The translations under genes and the position numbers were made by a program. The notes below the pieces were generated by a model. The model was not told the DNA's origin, did not search any database, and saw only the letters and a list, made by a program, of their open reading frames with translations. From Phenylobacterium sp. (GTDB lineage: Bacteria; Pseudomonadota; Alphaproteobacteria; Caulobacterales; Caulobacteraceae), in NCBI RefSeq assembly GCF_004799395.1, contig NZ_SSMZ01000124.1:1-38425 (forward strand): DNA of 38,425 nucleotides, given 5' to 3'. Positions 3,581 to 35,886 of the stretch are shown one piece after another (the stretch's first letter is position 1; every line of letters starts with the position of its first letter).

Positions 3581-5353
3581 ATGATCGACGTTCCCTTCGT
3601 CACTTCCCCGCGGCGCGCGCCGATGCGGCTGCTGACGGCGCTCCGGCGGCGGATGCGGACCAGCGAGCTGTGGCTGATCGCACTGGCGGTGCTGGTCGGC
3701 GCGGCGGCGGGCCTGCTGGCGGTGATCCAGGCGGGCCTGGCGCATGGGCTGCAGTCGCTGCTCTACGGAATCAAGTTCGACGAGCGGCTGAGTGCTGCGG
3801 CGCAGATCGCGCCGCTCACCGCCGTGTGGCTCGCCGCCGGGGGCCTGGTTCTGGGCGGCTTCACCTGGCTGGTGCAGCGCCGGCGCTCCACCTTGGTGGA
3901 CGTGGTCGAGGCCAATGCGCTCTACGGCGGCGTGCTGGGCCTGGTCGACAGCCTGATCGTCTGCGCCCAGACCGTGCTCTCCAACGGCGTCGGGGCCTCG
4001 GTGGGGCTGGAGGCGGCCTATGCTCAGGCTGGCGGCGCGGCCGCCTCCTGGGCCGGGCGACAGATGAAGCTGCGCCGCCATGACATGCGCATTCTGCTGG
4101 GCGCGGGCGCGGGCGCCGCAATCGGGGCGGCTTTCGGAGCGCCGTTGACCGGCGCCTTCTACGCCTTCGAGATCGTCATCGGCTCCTACACGCCCTCGGC
4201 CATCGCTCCAGTGGCGGCGGCCTGCCTGACCAGTGTGATGGTCGCCAAGGCCATTGGCGCGCCGCCCTATTCCATCGAGATCGCCGCCCAGAACACGCCG
4301 GACGCCCTGGGCTACGCCCTCTATTCGGGCCTGGGCCTGATCTGCGCCCTGATCGGGGTGGCGATCATGCGCCTGGTGGCGGTGGCTGATCGGCTGGTTC
4401 GGGCTTCCCCCATACCCATGGTCCTGCGGCCCGCCGTGGGCGGCCTGCTGCTGGGCGTGCTGGCGGTGATCTCGCCGCAGACCTTGTCGGCCGGTCACGG
4501 GGCGCTGCACCTGGACCTGGCTGTGGGCGTGCCCCTGGCGATCCTGGCCATCGTCCTGGCGCTGAAGACGCTGGCCTCGGTGATCTCGCTCGGCTTCGGC
4601 TTCCGAGGCGGCCTGTTCTTCGCCTCGCTGTTCCTCGGAACCTTGGTCGGGCAGCTCTATGCCGGCGCCGCCGACTTCGCCTCCATCGAGAGGCTGAGCC
4701 CGGAGAACGCCGCGCTCGTCGGCATGGGCGCCCTGGCGGTCACCGTGGTCGGGGGCCCGCTGACCATGAGTTTCCTGGTGCTGGAGACCACCCGCGATTT
4801 CGGCGTCGCCGCCGCGACCTTGGCCGCCACTCTGATCGCCTCAACCGTAGTGCGCGAGCGGTTCGGCTATTCCTTCTCCACCTGGCGGCTGCACCTGCGC
4901 GGCGAGACCATCCGCTCGGCCCGCGACGTTGGCTGGATGCGCACACTCACCGCCGGCAAGATGATGCGTAAGGACCCGCCCACCGCGCCGGCCGCAATCA
5001 CCCTAACCGAATTCCGCCGGCGCTATCCCTTGGGCTCGACCCAGCGGGTGCTGCTGGTCGATGACCTGGGCGGCTATGTGGGTGTGATGGTCACCGCCAG
5101 CGCTTACGCCGACGGGCTCGACCTGGAGGCGCTCGCCGAGAGCCTGGCGGTCAGCCGCGATGATACGTTATCGCCAGAAATGAGCATCGAGGCGGTGATG
5201 CGCGCTTTCGAAACCACCGAGACCGACGAACTTGCCGTCGTCGGGCCTGAAGGCGAGGTGTTGGGCCTGCTGGCCGAGGCCTACGTCACCCGGCGCTACG
5301 CCAGCGAACTGGAGAAGCAGCAACTCGACCTCTACGGCGAGGGCAAGGACTGA
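3581..5353 (+). CDS. CLC-family chloride channel/antiporter with C-terminal CBS domains
   Basis: The 590-residue protein has about ten hydrophobic segments in residues 30-425, followed by a soluble tail (450-580) that reads as a pair of CBS domains. CLC features include the repeat-like NGVGASVGLEA (136-145), corresponding to the usual G-R/K-E-G-P filter; APLTGAFYAFE (187-197); GFRGGLFFASL (340-350), corresponding to GxFxP; and GGPLTMSFLVLETT (391-404). The external gating glutamate seems kept (E144), but the following GP is AA and the proline of GxFxP is alanine, so the filter is divergent. Members move chloride, often coupled to protons, across the inner membrane, while CBS domains usually bind nucleotides. 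It is convergent with fabB, 13 bases apart, and divergent from fabI. An internal ATG at 3623 is an alternative start. Confidence 0.9.
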   Translation: MIDVPFVTSPRRAPMRLLTALRRRMRTSELWLIALAVLVGAAAGLLAVIQAGLAHGLQSLLYGIKFDERLSAAAQIAPLTAVWLAAGGLVLGGFTWLVQRRRSTLVDVVEANALYGGVLGLVDSLIVCAQTVLSNGVGASVGLEAAYAQAGGAAASWAGRQMKLRRHDMRILLGAGAGAAIGAAFGAPLTGAFYAFEIVIGSYTPSAIAPVAAACLTSVMVAKAIGAPPYSIEIAAQNTPDALGYALYSGLGLICALIGVAIMRLVAVADRLVRASPIPMVLRPAVGGLLLGVLAVISPQTLSAGHGALHLDLAVGVPLAILAIVLALKTLASVISLGFGFRGGLFFASLFLGTLVGQLYAGAADFASIERLSPENAALVGMGALAVTVVGGPLTMSFLVLETTRDFGVAAATLAATLIASTVVRERFGYSFSTWRLHLRGETIRSARDVGWMRTLTAGKMMRKDPPTAPAAITLTEFRRRYPLGSTQRVLLVDDLGGYVGVMVTASAYADGLDLEALAESLAVSRDDTLSPEMSIEAVMRAFETTETDELAVVGPEGEVLGLLAEAYVTRRYASELEKQQLDLYGEGKD

Positions 5354-22053: not shown

Positions 22054-22646
22054 GGCGCCAGGATCCCGCGCTTGCGCAGCAGCTCCAGCAGACCCATCAG
22101 CGGCAGGCCCAGGATTGTGAAGTAGTCACCCTCAATCTTGGAGAACAGTTGCACCCCTTGCGCCTCGAGGCGGTAGCACCCCACTGAGCCCAGCGCCGCC
22201 TCGCCTTCCTCGGCCAGATAGCTGTCCAGGAAGCTGTCGGAGAAATCGCGCATGCGCAGGGTTGCGCTCTGGGTTTCGCGCCAGACGACGGCGCCGCGTT
22301 CGGCCACCACCACCGCCGAATGCAGCATGTGCGGCTTGCCGCGCAGGGTCTGCAGGCGCTCGCGGGCCGCCGCCAGGGTCTCGGTCTTGTCGTAGAGCTT
22401 GCCCTGGAATTCCAGCGTCTGGTCGGCACCGAGCACAAGTTCGGGCCGACCGACCGAGACAGCCAGCGCCTTTTCTTCGGCTAGGGCTTCGGCCACTTGG
22501 CGCGGCGTGGCGCGCTTGGCGACCAGTTCGGCCTTCGTGACCTCCTCGTCCACGCCGGAGCCGACCGCCTCGAACGGCACGCCGGCGCCTTGGAGAACGG
22601 CCCGCCGCGCGGTGCTTTTCGAGGCGAGAACCAGACCGGGGCTCAC
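22050..22646 (-). CDS. maf: Maf-family nucleoside triphosphate pyrophosphatase
   Basis: The 198-residue protein hydrolyses non-canonical or modified nucleoside triphosphates to monophosphates. The Maf signature [19 protein letters not shown] is at residues 5-23, the conserved aspartate in [10 protein letters not shown], and [15 protein letters not shown] lies mid-chain. The family is linked to house-cleaning of nucleotide pools and, in some bacteria, septum formation. Start and stop both overlap neighbours by four bases (ppsR and aroE). Confidence 0.93.
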
Positions 22647-23494
22647 CCCAGCACCTCGACCTGTCCATGGCCGCCATGCAGCAGGTTGAGGACCGCCGCC
22701 GCGGTTTCCTCGACGGAGCGGCGGGTCACATCGATCACCGGCCAGCCCTGGCGTTCGTAGAGCCGCCGCGCCTGGACGATCTCCTCGCGCACCGCATCCA
22801 CGTCGATGTAGGTCGACTCGCGGTTTTCCTTCAGACTCAAGAGGCGGTTGCGGCGGATCTGGATGAGCCGGTCCGGCGAGATCGAAAGGCCGACAACCAG
22901 GGTCGACTTAAGGGCGAACAGCTTCTCCGGCGGCGGGCGGCCCGGCACCAGGGGCACGTTGCCGGCCCGTACGCCCCGATGCGCCAGGTAGATGCAGGTC
23001 GGCGTCTTCGAGGTCCGCGAGACGCCCACCAGGATAACGTCGGCCTGTTCCAGGTCCTGGCCACCTTGGCCGTCGTCGTGGCCGATGGCGTAGTTCAGCG
23101 CGTCCATGCGGTTGAAATAGTCGTTGTCGAGCCGCAGGTGCGCGCCGACCCGGCTGGTGGTGGTGTAGCCCAGGTAGCGCGACATGGCCGAGACCAGCGG
23201 GTCCAACGCCGGGATGCAGGGCATGTCGAGTTTGCGGCAGCCCTCCTCGAGGGCCTCGCGCAGTCCGTCGTCGACGATGGTGTGGATGACGACGCCCGGC
23301 GCCTCCTCGATGTCGCCCAGCGCCCGGTCGAGCTGGCGCTGGGAACGGACCAGGGCGTAGATGTGCTCGATCGGCAGGACATTGTCGAAGCGGGCGCAGA
23401 CCGCGCGCGCCATGGCGTTCAGGGTCTCCCCGGTGGAATCCGACACCAGGTGGACATGGAAATAGGTCGCGAGCTTCGGGGCGGTCGTTGTCAC
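22643..23494 (-). CDS. ppsR: DUF299 kinase/pyrophosphorylase (PEP synthase/PPDK regulatory protein)
   Basis: The 283-residue protein belongs to the bifunctional ADP-dependent kinase/Pi-dependent pyrophosphorylase family, which switches PEP synthase or pyruvate phosphate dikinase off and on by threonine phosphorylation. The opening FHVHLVSDSTGETLNAMARA and the P-loop-like GVSRTSKTPTCIYLA match the family. Whether the partner is PpsA or PPDK cannot be read here. The start is GTG 23494. It is the first gene left of the putative origin and heads a minus-strand operon, the same position held by the DUF299 gene RP001 beside the Caulobacter origin. Confidence 0.9.
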   Translation of the reverse strand: MTTTAPKLATYFHVHLVSDSTGETLNAMARAVCARFDNVLPIEHIYALVRSQRQLDRALGDIEEAPGVVIHTIVDDGLREALEEGCRKLDMPCIPALDPLVSAMSRYLGYTTTSRVGAHLRLDNDYFNRMDALNYAIGHDDGQGGQDLEQADVILVGVSRTSKTPTCIYLAHRGVRAGNVPLVPGRPPPEKLFALKSTLVVGLSISPDRLIQIRRNRLLSLKENRESTYIDVDAVREEIVQARRLYERQGWPVIDVTRRSVEETAAAVLNLLHGGHGQVEVLG

Positions 23495-23630
23495 GGGCGG
23501 CCTGACGCGAAAATGCCTGGGGACGATTCCTGTGGAGCAGTCTTAGCGAACGCGGGCCGGATTGGGGATAGACCGCGTGCGCCGGCGGCTCGTCCGCCGG
23601 CGGGGCAAATCACCGGGATGGAATCGGCCC

Positions 23631-23646
23631 TAAACCTTCCATTAAC
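23631..23646 (+). promoter_or_regulatory. Near-consensus CtrA box
   Basis: TAAA-CCTTCCA-TTAAC differs by one base from TTAA-N7-TTAAC, the binding site of the cell-cycle regulator CtrA. It lies inside the putative origin, about 100 bases from the perfect box, where CtrA binding would block initiation in non-replicating cells. Confidence 0.55.
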
Positions 23647-23691
23647 CCACTGGGCGAGTCCCCGGTGGACGCCGCAGAGCTCGCGGACCGA

Positions 23692-23704
23692 CAAGGATTG
23701 GATA
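23692..23704 (-). promoter_or_regulatory. IHF-like site in the origin
   Basis: CAAGGATTGGATA matches the complement of WATCAANNNNTTR with one mismatch. It lies between the two CtrA boxes and overlaps a DnaA-like box. IHF bends the Caulobacter origin and competes with CtrA there, so the placement is sensible, but a one-mismatch short motif is weak evidence. Confidence 0.35.
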
Positions 23705-23738
23705 GCCACAGGCGCGCACCGCGCGGTCCCCCTAGAGG

Positions 23739-23754
23739 TTAACGATTCCTTAAG
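23739..23754 (-). promoter_or_regulatory. Perfect CtrA box with GATTC in its spacer
   Basis: The plus strand reads TTAA-CGATTCC-TTAAG. Read from the minus strand with the flanking base it is TTAA-GGAATCG-TTAAC, the full CtrA consensus. The seven-base spacer includes GATTC, a CcrM methylation site. The box sits centrally in the putative origin and could repress initiation or control nearby promoters. Confidence 0.8.
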
Positions 23755-24004
23755 CGTCCGCGGGGCTTGGCGGTCGGTCCCCGCAATTCACAGGCCTGTC
23801 CTCCCTGGAGGGCGCAGGCGGGACAAGCTGGGGACGGGGGTTGCGCCGTCATGAATGTGTCGCCGTTGTCCACGCACTCGACAGCCCCTATCGCTCCTAC
23901 ACCAACCTTTTTCAGAACCCTTATTAGGAAGAAGAGGGGCGGACGGGATGAGTGGATTCGGCGTTGGGCTTGAGCCGCAGGCCGGGAGGCGATTTAAAGC
24001 TCCC

Positions 24005-25057
24005 ATGAGCGAGACCACTCCGCGGCTCCTACGAGCCTTGGCCGGCGAAACCCTCGACCGGCCTCCAATCTGGCTCATGCGCCAGGCGGGCCGCTCGCTG
24101 CCGGAATACCGCGAGCTGCGCACCCGGGCTGCGGACTTCATCACATTCTGCCACAATCCGGAGATGGCCGCCGAGGCGACGCTGCAGCCCATGCGCCGCT
24201 TTCCACTGGATGCGGCCATCGTCTTCGCCGACATCCTGCTGATCCCTGGCGCGCTTGGCCAAAAGGTCTGGTTCGAAGCCGGTGAGGGCCCACGGCTTGG
24301 TGAGCTGCCGCTGGTCGAGGCCATGGCCGAGCAAGTCGAAGCTTCCACGGGACGGCTTTCGGCGATCGGCGAGACGCTGTCGCTCGTGCGCGCCGAACTT
24401 GAGCCAGACCGAGCGCTGATCGGCTTTGCAGGCGGCCCCTGGACGGTGGCTACCTACATGATCGAAGGTCGCAGCTCGAACCGCGAAGTGGCGCGAGCCT
24501 ATGCCTACGCTCACCCCGAAGAACTGGATGCTCTGCTGGCCGTACTGGTGGACGCCACAGCCCGCTATCTGGTCATGCAGGCCAAGTCCGGCGCCCAGGC
24601 GCTGAAGATCTTCGAGAGCTGGGCGGAAGGCCTGGCCGAGGACGTGTTCGAGCGCATCGTCATCGCTCCGCACCTGGCCATTGTCGAGAAGGTCCGCGCA
24701 GCCGGCGTGACCGTCCCGTTCATCGGCTTTCCCCGTGGGGCCGGAGCGCTGGTGGAGAACTACGCCCGCACCGTGCCCGTGCAGGGCGTCGCGCTCGACA
24801 CCCAGGCGAGCGCCGAACTGGGTCAGCGGCTGCAGGCAGGCGGCAAGACGATCCAGGGCGCGCTGGACAACCTGCTGCTGCGCGAAGGCGGCTCAGCCCT
24901 GGATGCTCGGGTGGACCAGCTGCTCGCCCAATGGAGCGGCGGTCCCTACATCTTCAACCTGGGCCACGGGGTGATGCCAGACACACCGATCGCCCACATC
25001 GCCCGCGTCGTGGAGCGGGTGACCGGAAAACCGGCTAAGGCCATGGCCGCCGAGTGA
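24005..25057 (+). CDS. hemE: Uroporphyrinogen decarboxylase
   Basis: The 350-residue enzyme decarboxylates uroporphyrinogen III to coproporphyrinogen III in heme synthesis. The substrate-binding motif RPPIWLMRQAGRSLPEYR is at residues 19-36, and FAGGPWTVATYMIEG and FNLGHGVMPDTP are further family signatures. Most homologues read RQAGRYLPEYR, so serine replaces tyrosine here. I start at ATG 24005 (MSETTPRLLRALAGE), as in homologues. ATG 23948 is in frame with a better purine-rich upstream and would extend into the origin. The gene is the right boundary of oriC and overlaps hemH by four bases. Confidence 0.96.
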   Translation: MSETTPRLLRALAGETLDRPPIWLMRQAGRSLPEYRELRTRAADFITFCHNPEMAAEATLQPMRRFPLDAAIVFADILLIPGALGQKVWFEAGEGPRLGELPLVEAMAEQVEASTGRLSAIGETLSLVRAELEPDRALIGFAGGPWTVATYMIEGRSSNREVARAYAYAHPEELDALLAVLVDATARYLVMQAKSGAQALKIFESWAEGLAEDVFERIVIAPHLAIVEKVRAAGVTVPFIGFPRGAGALVENYARTVPVQGVALDTQASAELGQRLQAGGKTIQGALDNLLLREGGSALDARVDQLLAQWSGGPYIFNLGHGVMPDTPIAHIARVVERVTGKPAKAMAAE

Positions 25058-28219: not shown

Positions 28220-28257
28220 GGCTTGCGGCCTTACCAAGGGCCTACTCGTTCTACTTG

Positions 28258-28273
28258 TGTTTCACGTGAAACA
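28258..28273. promoter_or_regulatory. parS: parS centromere site 1 (perfect 16-bp palindrome)
   Basis: TGTTTCACGTGAAACA is a perfect match to the bacterial parS consensus bound by ParB. It lies between the rho stop and the terminator hairpin, about 4.3 kb right of the origin. The cognate parA-parB genes are 6-8 kb away. Confidence 0.95.
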
Positions 28274-28277
28274 TCAG

Positions 28278-28305
28278 ACGCCGCCCCTTTCCGGAGGGGC
28301 GGCGT
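28278..28305. terminator. Bidirectional terminator between rho and the quinone reductase gene
   Basis: An 11-bp perfect stem (ACGCCGCCCCT / AGGGGCGGCGT) with a six-base loop is followed by TTT on the plus strand. It lies between two convergent genes and eight bases before the reductase stop codon, so it fits rho termination and possibly the opposite gene. Confidence 0.8.
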
Positions 28306-28312
28306 TTCGCTG

Positions 28313-29287
28313 TCAGGGGATCAACAGACTCGCGCCGATCGTAGCCCGGCTTTCCAGGGCTTCGTGCGCCTTGCGGGCGTCGGCCAGCGGGTACGTCTGG
28401 CCGATCTCGACCTCCACCTTGCCGGAGCCGATCATCTCGAACAGGGCCGCGGCGCTGGCGTCGAGCTCGGCGGTGGTGGTCTGGTAATCGCCCATGGTCG
28501 GCCGTGTGAAGAACAACGAACCGCCGAGCATCAGCTGGCGGGCCTCCACGGGTGGCGGCGGGCCGGACGCATTGCCGAAGCTGACAAACAGGCCGCGGCG
28601 CGCCAGGCTTTTCAAGGTGCCTTCGAAGGTGTCCTTGCCCACCGAGTCGTAGGCCACAGGCACGCCCTTCCCGCCGGTGATCCGGCGGACCTCGGCCGCC
28701 ACATCCTGGGCGCGGTAAAGGATCACATGGTCGGCCCCCAGCTCACGCACGCGCGCAGCCTTTTTCTCGGAGCCCACGGTGGCGATCACCACCGCGCCCA
28801 GAGCCTTGGCCCACTGGGTCATGATCTGGCCGACGCCGCCGGCGGCCGCATGGACCAGAAGGGTCTCCCCGGCCTCCACGCGGTGCAGGCGCCGGAGCAG
28901 GAACTCCACTGTCATGCCCTTCAGCAGCGCCGCCGCGGCGGTGCGGACATCGATGTCGTCCGGCAAGGCGACCGCGCGGTCGGCCAGAGCCACCGAATAC
29001 TCCGCATAGGCCCCCGGCGAGCTGGAGCCGGCGGTCGCCACCCGGTCGCCGACCTTGAAGCGTGTGACCTCCTCGCCCACGGCCTCGACGACGCCCGCGG
29101 CCTCGCCGCCCAGGCCCGAGGGCAGCTTCATCGGGTAGAGGCCGGATCGCTGGTAGGTCTCGATGAAGTTCACGCCGATCGCCTCGTGGCGGATCAGCAC
29201 CTGCTTCGGTCCCGGTGAGGGGGTCTCGACCTCGACATATTGCAAGACTTCCGGGCCGCCGGTGGTCTCGAGCCGGATCGCGCGCAT
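28313..29287 (-). CDS. NADPH:quinone oxidoreductase (zeta-crystallin type)
   Basis: The 324-residue medium-chain reductase reduces quinones with NADPH. The N-terminal MRAIRLETTGGPEVLQYVEV and GVNFIETYQRSGLYP are typical of QOR/zeta-crystallin, and the nucleotide site LLVHAAAGGVGQIMTQWAKALGA is near residues 142-164. There are no zinc-binding cysteines in the usual places, as expected for this branch. The track ORF extends further upstream into the hydrolase frame. The ATG overlaps the hydrolase stop by one base (TGATG), so the two are co-translated. Confidence 0.9.
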   Translation of the reverse strand: MRAIRLETTGGPEVLQYVEVETPSPGPKQVLIRHEAIGVNFIETYQRSGLYPMKLPSGLGGEAAGVVEAVGEEVTRFKVGDRVATAGSSSPGAYAEYSVALADRAVALPDDIDVRTAAAALLKGMTVEFLLRRLHRVEAGETLLVHAAAGGVGQIMTQWAKALGAVVIATVGSEKKAARVRELGADHVILYRAQDVAAEVRRITGGKGVPVAYDSVGKDTFEGTLKSLARRGLFVSFGNASGPPPPVEARQLMLGGSLFFTRPTMGDYQTTTAELDASAAALFEMIGSGKVEVEIGQTYPLADARKAHEALESRATIGASLLIP

Positions 29288-29982
29288 CAGCCGAGCACCT
29301 TCTGGAAGAACTGCAGGGTGCGGCCATTGGCCAGCTTTGCGGCGGCGGCGTCGAAATGCTCGCCTCCCTCGCGGGCGAAAGCGTGATCGCAGCCCGGGTA
29401 GGTGTGGATCTCGATCTGCGGATGATCCTTCAGGGCGGCCAGGATGATCGCCTGGGCCGGCCTGGGCACGAACTCGTCCTCCTCGGCGATGTGCATCAGC
29501 AGCGGATGGGTCAGCTTCTCCGCCTCCGCGACCCGGTTCTCCAAGCCCACTCCATAGTACGAGACGCTTGCCTCGGCGTCGGTGCGCGTGGCGGTCAGGA
29601 AAGCGAGCTGGCCGCCCAGGCAATAGCCGACTGCGCCGACCTTGCCGTTGCAGCCGGCGTCCTTGCGGACATGGGCGATGGTCGCTGCGATATCACCGAC
29701 GCCCGCGTCGACGTCGAAGGCGTTGAACAACTCGAAGGCGCGTTTCCACTCGGCCTCGGACTTGTCGGTGATGTCGATGTCGGCCTCGATCCGCCAGAAC
29801 AGGTCGGGGCAGATCGCCAGGTACCCCTGGCCCGCCAGACCGTCGGTGACGTCGCGCATCACCTGGTTCACCCCGAAAATCTCCTGGATGACGACAATGG
29901 CGGGCGCCTTCGGCTTGGCGGGTCGGGCCACATAGGCGCTGAAGGTCCCGTCCTTCGTGGTGATGTTCGTGCGCTCGCCCAT
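29287..29982 (-). CDS. Dienelactone hydrolase family protein
   Basis: The 231-residue alpha/beta hydrolase has the dienelactone hydrolase triad: nucleophile cysteine in GAVGYCLGGQLAF, aspartate in HIAEEDEFVPR and histidine in YPGCDHAFAREGGEHFD. PAIVVIQEIFGVNQVMRDV carries the conserved glutamate. Family members hydrolyse dienelactone or other small esters and lactones; with no aromatic degradation genes nearby, the natural substrate is open. It is the first gene of a two-gene minus-strand unit with the quinone reductase. Confidence 0.9.
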   Translation of the reverse strand: MGERTNITTKDGTFSAYVARPAKPKAPAIVVIQEIFGVNQVMRDVTDGLAGQGYLAICPDLFWRIEADIDITDKSEAEWKRAFELFNAFDVDAGVGDIAATIAHVRKDAGCNGKVGAVGYCLGGQLAFLTATRTDAEASVSYYGVGLENRVAEAEKLTHPLLMHIAEEDEFVPRPAQAIILAALKDHPQIEIHTYPGCDHAFAREGGEHFDAAAAKLANGRTLQFFQKVLG

Positions 29983-30076
29983 GGTGGTCTCCGGTTTCCG
30001 TAAGCTTCGATGTCTGCGCTACTAGCGCGCGGGGCCGTGGCGCGGCCATATGGAATCCGAAGCGGGAGCTTGCGGC

Positions 30077-31670: not shown

Positions 31671-31686
31671 TGTTTCACGTGAAACA
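31671..31686. promoter_or_regulatory. parS: parS centromere site 2 (perfect 16-bp palindrome)
   Basis: TGTTTCACGTGAAACA again matches the ParB-binding consensus perfectly. It ends about 30 bases before the mnmG start codon, about 7.7 kb from the origin and 2.5 kb from parA. In the mnmG frame it reads VSRET, which explains the extended track ORF. Confidence 0.95.
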
Positions 31687-35016: not shown

Positions 35017-35886
35017 ATGGCCGAGGGCCGCAGAGGTTTGGGCCGGGGCCTTTCGGCCCTGCTGGACGACGCGAACGACGGTGATGGGCCCGTCGCCGCC
35101 GGCGAAGGCGCTCGCGAGATCCCCATCGAACTGGTCCACCGCAACCCCGACCAGCCGCGCCGCCACTTCGCCGAGGCCGAGATCGCCGAGCTGGAGACCT
35201 CGATCCGCGACAAGGGCGTGTTGCAGCCGATCCTGGTCCGTCCCTCGCCCAAGACGTCGGGTGAATTCGAGATTGTGGCCGGTGAGCGCCGCTGGCGCGC
35301 GGCGCAGCAGGCTGGGCTGAAGGCGATCCCGGCGCTGGTGCGGGTGCTGGACGACGACAAGGCCTTCGAGATCGCCATCGTCGAGAACGTCCAGCGCGAA
35401 GACCTGAACGCCATGGAGGAGGCCCAGGCCTACCAGACCCTGATGCGGCGCATGGCCTACACCCAGGACAAGGCGGCCTCTGCGGTCGGCAAGTCGCGCA
35501 GCCATGTGGCCAACACCCTTCGCCTGTTGCAGCTGCCGGCGATCGTCCAGGACCACGTGCTGTTCGGCCGCCTGACCGCCGGCCATGCGCGCGCGATCCT
35601 GACCTCGGATCAGCCGGAGGCCTTGGCGCAAGCCATTGTCGAGAAAGGGCTTTCCGTCCGTGACGCGGAGGCGCTGGCCAAACGCAAGGGCGGGTCCGGT
35701 CCGGCCAAGGCCTCAGGCCCGCGCCGGAGCAAGGACACCGACACCGCAGCACTTGAGGTCGACCTGGAGGACGTGCTGGGCATGAGCGTCGACATCCTCG
35801 ACCGGGGCGGCGCGGGCGAACTGCGCATCAAGTACGCCACCCTGGAACAGCTCGACGAGCTTTGCCGCAGGCTGACCCGCGCATGA
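35017..35886 (+). CDS. parB: Chromosome partitioning protein ParB
   Basis: The 289-residue CTPase binds parS and slides along DNA. The N-terminal GLGRGLSALL (residues 7-16) is the ParA-contact motif. NPDQPRRHF (43-51), ENVQREDLNAMEEA and GERRWRAAQ (89-97) form the CTP-binding domain. A helix-turn-helix follows (DKAASAVGKSRSHVANTLRLL), then a linker and a C-terminal dimerisation domain (AGELRIKYATLEQLDELCRRL). GGAGAG precedes the ATG. The stop overlaps the next ATG by four bases. It should bind the two parS sites described here. Confidence 0.97.
   Translation: MAEGRRGLGRGLSALLDDANDGDGPVAAGEGAREIPIELVHRNPDQPRRHFAEAEIAELETSIRDKGVLQPILVRPSPKTSGEFEIVAGERRWRAAQQAGLKAIPALVRVLDDDKAFEIAIVENVQREDLNAMEEAQAYQTLMRRMAYTQDKAASAVGKSRSHVANTLRLLQLPAIVQDHVLFGRLTAGHARAILTSDQPEALAQAIVEKGLSVRDAEALAKRKGGSGPAKASGPRRSKDTDTAALEVDLEDVLGMSVDILDRGGAGELRIKYATLEQLDELCRRLTRA

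Follow-up and report, generated by a model that had tools for sequence, protein, structure and literature searches.

Genes and features around the ppsR–hemE gap

The DNA analysed (the window, a whole stretch of 38.4 kb) is contig C29 of a host genome of 4.44 Mb in 347 contigs. The nearest relatives, identified by PpsR, are genomes labelled Phenylobacterium or Caulobacteraceae/Alphaproteobacteria, and the host genome was grouped in one genus with 80 other genomes. Genes were assigned with Pfam. Positions 23495–24004 form a gap of 510 bp (GC content of 0.645, compared to 0.684 for the whole window). To its left lies ppsR on the minus strand, with maf, aroE, coaE, dnaQ and secB also on this side; to its right are hemE and hemH on the plus strand, followed by rho, mnmE, mnmG, rsmG, parA and parB. 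The 510-base gap between divergent genes, in the gene order of the original prediction, is borne out by these assignments. Two mechanical open reading frames overlapping the gap (22667–23854, plus strand; 23788–24348, minus strand) are probably spurious. The conserved start of hemE is the ATG at 24005, where the alignment begins in most homologues. Two open reading frames of 331 and 262 amino acids between rho and mnmE (window positions 28223–30003) are without a Pfam match. The features of the gap and its surroundings, with the strand where one was assigned, are the following.

22643–23494, minus: ppsR (DUF299, Kinase-PPPase), left boundary gene (PF03618, E 3e-90)
23495–24004: predicted chromosomal origin (Cori-type ppsR–hemE gap), from conservation at the relative loci and the motif footprint
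23518–23526, minus: W-type DnaA box TCGTCCCCA, aligned with the Caulobacter G-box
23531–23539, minus: G-box-like DnaA box TGCTCCACA, one mismatch to TGATCCACA; TCCAC in 28/71 gaps
23541–23550, plus: conserved block TCTTAGCGAA, columns at least 60%, mostly >90%, conserved; CtrA match with at most 1 mismatch in 0/71 gaps
23563–23571, minus: W-type DnaA box CTATCCCCA; TCCCC in 67/71 and 6/6 (Caulobacter) gaps
23631–23645: second CtrA-type site TAAACCTTCCATTAA, 1 mismatch; perfect in 18/71 gaps
23739–23753: perfect CtrA site TTAACGATTCCTTAA; perfect in 41/71 gaps, at most 1 mismatch in ~55/71
23776–23794, plus: tandem DnaA-box-like conserved block around TCCCCGCAATTCACAGG, from the alignment
23829–23837, minus: W-type DnaA box CCGTCCCCA; TCCCC in 42/71 gaps
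23866–23874, plus: DnaA-like box TTGTCCACG; TCCCC or TCCAC in 66/71 gaps
23897–23936: probable DNA unwinding element
23969–23997, plus: probable hemE promoter CTTGAG-N18-TTTAA; N18 spacer in 64/71 gaps
24005–25057, plus: hemE, right boundary gene (PF01208, E 9e-101)
28258–28273 and 31671–31686: the two parS sites TGTTTCACGTGAAACA of the genome
34194–35006, plus: parA (PF13614, E 3e-64)
35017–35886, plus: parB (ParB_N, HTH_ParB and ParB_C)

In C. crescentus, Cori is located between hemE (CC3763) and the COG1806/DUF299 gene (CC0001) (PMC1914354). The host genome encodes DnaA, ParAB and a CtrA orthologue that is 95% identical to the query; the match supports both the query sequence and the orthologue.

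The gap was kept at 455–683 bp in all of the 79 relative loci holding both ppsR and hemE. For comparison, three sets were used: 71 Phenylobacterium-type gaps (so called because some come from genomes labelled Caulobacteraceae only), 10 Caulobacter gaps and 28 gaps of other Caulobacteraceae genera. Genera beyond the host's own carry the codes g2–g21, of which g21 was taken as Caulobacter; the 6 Caulobacter gaps obtained when searching for relatives and the 5 g21 gaps share one genome. Alignment of the 71 Phenylobacterium-type and 6 Caulobacter gaps revealed islands that are conserved by more than 80–90%, with unconserved stretches in between. The islands are CTGGGGAC, TCTTAGCGAA, TTGGGGATAG, TTAACCCAC, the CtrA site, TCCCCGCAATTCACAGG, CTGGGGA, TTNTCC(A/C)C and the hemE promoter block. 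In 7 of 40 sampled relatives (L199, L208, L213, L214, L217, L218 and L219; genera g11, g15, g19 and part of g20) the search for hemE within ~1.1 kb of ppsR was negative, and the origin neighbourhood may therefore be broken or longer there.

Regulatory motifs in the gap

The number of motifs expected by chance in the gap was obtained from 200 dinucleotide shuffles of the gap. CtrA-type sites were scored as TTAA-N7-TTAA with up to one mismatch. The gap contains one perfect site (0.000 expected) and two when one mismatch is allowed (0.025 expected), which confirms the two CtrA boxes claimed originally; these are the only CtrA-type sites at this threshold in the window. Across the 71 gaps the mean number of perfect sites was 1.08, compared to 0.012 in shuffles, and reversed controls showed no excess. 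The 28 gaps of other genera held 39 CtrA sites versus 0.2 in shuffles. Genome-wide, the host has 7 perfect matches versus 5 for the reversed control pattern, so a single CtrA site is unremarkable as such; its place and conservation are what is remarkable.

DnaA boxes of the W type are likewise in excess. TCCCCA occurs 3 times in the gap (0.42 expected) and on average 3.01 times across the 71 gaps (0.46 in shuffles; reversed controls without excess), and every one of the 71 has at least three TCCCC[AG] boxes. In the 28 gaps of other genera, 99 W boxes were counted versus 36 in shuffles. A canonical high-affinity box of the TTATCCACA type was not found in the gap with up to one mismatch. The weak DnaA-like boxes of the original prediction are thus present, together with the single G-box-like box. 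The central CtrA site and the 9-mer box of the TCCCCGCAATTCACAGG block start 36 bp apart, with the box on the right. The idea that the A-type box (TCCACA) had been wholly lost in Phenylobacterium was rejected, since 31 of the 71 gaps keep a G-box or canonical box within one mismatch.

The AT-rich tract could also be verified: 23897–23936 is the thermodynamically least stable 40-mer of the window, and in the alignment the least stable 40-mer keeps this place beside hemE in 62/71 gaps of the Phenylobacterium type and 6/6 of Caulobacter. The hemE promoter block ends 7 bp ahead of the ATG in the window and 2–12 bp ahead of it in most Phenylobacterium-type gaps, a distance that suggests a leaderless hemE mRNA.

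The two remaining motifs fared less well. An IHF-like match exists at 23608–23620, but conservation is lacking, with 6 matches across the 71 gaps versus 2.45 expected, and the same patterns match none of the 6 Caulobacter gaps. The claimed clustering of GANTC is marginal in the gap (5 versus 2.0 expected, P about 0.045) and is unsupported beyond the host genome, the genus as a whole showing no clear excess (2.65 versus 2.05).

Segregation sites, strand polarity and the position of dnaA

Exactly two parS sites (up to 2 mismatches) are present in the host genome, and both are inside the window on the hemE side, 4.3 and 7.7 kb from the gap, with parAB farther on. Clusters of parS lie ~5–14 kb from the ppsR–hemE gap in three complete relatives: four sites at 86.8–92.0 kb in G033, three at 3,986–3,988 kb of 3,996 kb in G079, and three at 242.6–246.8 kb in G020. 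The latter genome, unlike the others examined, also has four perfect parS sites at a great distance from this cluster (893,836; 986,200; 3,433,023; 3,453,271).

A switch in strand polarity was looked for by GC skew and by the orientation of GGGNAGGG, which was treated as a polar motif of the KOPS kind, following the example of E. coli. Across the 38.4-kb window a clear GC-skew switch was not seen, the signal being too weak, and the window has 2 GGGNAGGG sites only, too few for polarity. As the host genome consists of 347 contigs, the skew evidence was drawn from relatives. The gap has the same orientation in the complete relatives G020 and G033 as in the window. In G020 (gap at 233.3 kb, dnaA at 164.8 kb) the GGGNAGGG polarity changes from 1:7 in 205–225 kb to 6:1 in 225–245 kb, and the GC skew from −0.032 to +0.005 over the same intervals; both flip within ~22 kb of the gap and away from dnaA. 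In G033 (gap from 81.8 kb, dnaA at 0.5 kb) the GGGNAGGG polarity turns at about 60–80 kb; the skew is negative over 0–80 kb, which includes dnaA, near zero or slightly negative over 80–160 kb, and then positive. Polarity and skew are noisy in G079, with a weak switch. The skew is irregular in draft contig C40 of the nearest relative, G067, which is probably rearranged or misassembled.

The sign change of the skew in G033, displaced rightward from the gap by some 60–80 kb, would fit a gap that is an origin relic, with the true origin nearby (within ~100 kb) but outside it. Skew is a coarse locator only, however, the switch in G020 lies close to the gap, and the boxes and unwinding tract are conserved across the 71 gaps; we regard a relic as the least probable of the explanations considered.

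The statement that dnaA is absent from the window holds: none was found among the window genes identified, and the one dnaA of the host genome sits on contig C297. In seven genomes the distance from dnaA to the gap is 68–142 kb. Some complete or near-complete Phenylobacterium assemblies (G014, G033 and G043) begin at dnaA, which in G033 is ~80 kb from the predicted origin. This choice of start, together with the probable hemE promoter in the gap, would agree with an origin beside dnaA, in which case the gap would only be a divergent promoter region with regulatory sites for CtrA and DnaA. Against this stand the location of dnaA within the left arm, away from the switch, in G020 and G033, and the position of parS, which adjoins the ppsR–hemE gap rather than dnaA. 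By eye, a DnaA-box cluster was not found in the rpsT–dnaA stretch of the host genome, nor was TTATCCACA found on contig C297. Moreover, a simple promoter leaves the conserved weak tract and the box set over ~500 bp unexplained. An origin beside dnaA is therefore very improbable, if marginally less so than a relic.

Overall, the candidate origin between ppsR and hemE is supported by the conservation of the gap at all 79 loci, the unwinding-type tract, parS at 4–8 kb and the polarity switches near it in relatives, which are sharpest in G020. Judged from sequence, the gap is almost certainly where copying of the chromosome starts, in the same neighbourhood as in Caulobacter and with control sites that are placed differently.

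Comparison with Cori and predicted mode of initiation

Cori of C. crescentus has two moderate G-boxes (TGATCCACA), which lie near CtrA sites or overlap them, and its W-boxes are very weak (PMC4468827, PMC4285127). The gap resembles it in the boundary genes and their orientation and in a length of ~400–500 bp (PMC1914354, PMC4468827), as well as in its W-type TCCCCA boxes, the TTAA-N7-TTAA sites above chance, the AT-rich tract on the hemE side and parS within ~8 kb. The alignment with Caulobacter gaps agrees with this in part: W boxes and the weak tract are shared, but the perfect G-box and the left CtrA site are absent.

A perfect G-box is present in 0/71 Phenylobacterium-type gaps (the window has one at 1 mismatch), compared to 5/6 Caulobacter gaps found among the relatives and 4/5 g21 gaps. 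At the aligned G-box position (23518) the Phenylobacterium-type gaps have a W-type box instead (TCCCC in 69/71, versus TCCAC in 6/6 Caulobacter). None of the 28 gaps of other Caulobacteraceae genera has a perfect G-box either, so its absence here is compatible with wider Cori-type membership; a perfect G-box seems to mark the genus Caulobacter, not this kind of origin as such. The CtrA sites also differ in position: those of Phenylobacterium-type gaps are central, with none beside the leftmost DnaA box. A CtrA site (at most 1 mismatch) 12–14 bp after a leftward box was found in 10/10 gaps of Caulobacter, 7/28 of other genera and 0/71 of the Phenylobacterium type; the contrast is large, but it is not a pre-set test, because the spacing classes were picked after viewing the site maps, and the compared sequences are related by descent. 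Since CtrA tolerates degenerate sites, a weak site may exist on the left, such as one within TCTTAGCGAA, which aligns with the left CtrA site of Caulobacter. Further differences are the large distance to dnaA in Phenylobacterium and perhaps the lack of an IHF site overlapping a CtrA site, for which the patterns gave one non-conserved match in the gap and none in the 6 Caulobacter gaps. By its motif content, the putative origin belongs to a known type, of which it is a variant dominated by W-boxes.

In G079, which we take to be the P. zucineum HLK1 chromosome, ppsR starts at base 22. The authors of the HLK1 genome placed base 1 of the chromosome at a putative origin, which is probably the same ppsR–hemE gap; in the part of the report considered here, origin motifs are not described and nothing distinguishing was found (PMC2529317). 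The origins of Rickettsia and Wolbachia share hemE as a boundary gene and sites of the CtrA, DnaA and IHF type (PMC1914354), but they belong to AT-rich small genomes and the other flank differs in Wolbachia.

The best explanation, which we hold with high confidence, is an origin orthologous to Cori, with probable DnaA assembly on weak boxes, opening of the tract and a central block by CtrA. By analogy with C. crescentus, DnaA would probably assemble on weak, mostly W-type boxes (PMC4468827, PMC4285127), three of them leftward near ppsR, followed, at the centre and on the right, by boxes of both orientations. DnaA would then probably open the AT-rich tract adjoining hemE. Phosphorylated CtrA would probably block initiation, again as in C. 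crescentus, but from a single central site or from both (23631, 23739), which lie among the boxes, whereas the C. crescentus site lies directly beside the leftmost box. Segregation of the new origins would subsequently fall to ParB bound at the two parS sites. In C. crescentus, the overlap of CtrA site and G-box is thought to exclude DnaA; if this overlap is truly missing here, only the central sites would be left for CtrA to act from. Whether the Phenylobacterium Cori is a variant that does without the overlap and relies on W-class boxes with CtrA sites at the centre, the W-box being the ancestral DnaA site of the family's origins, is an even call.

If the origin is placed correctly, Phenylobacterium assemblies rotated to dnaA have it misplaced by tens of kilobases. 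The gaps compared here, 71 of the Phenylobacterium type, 10 of Caulobacter and 28 of other genera, would offer a natural test of which parts of the competition between CtrA and DnaA at Cori are essential.
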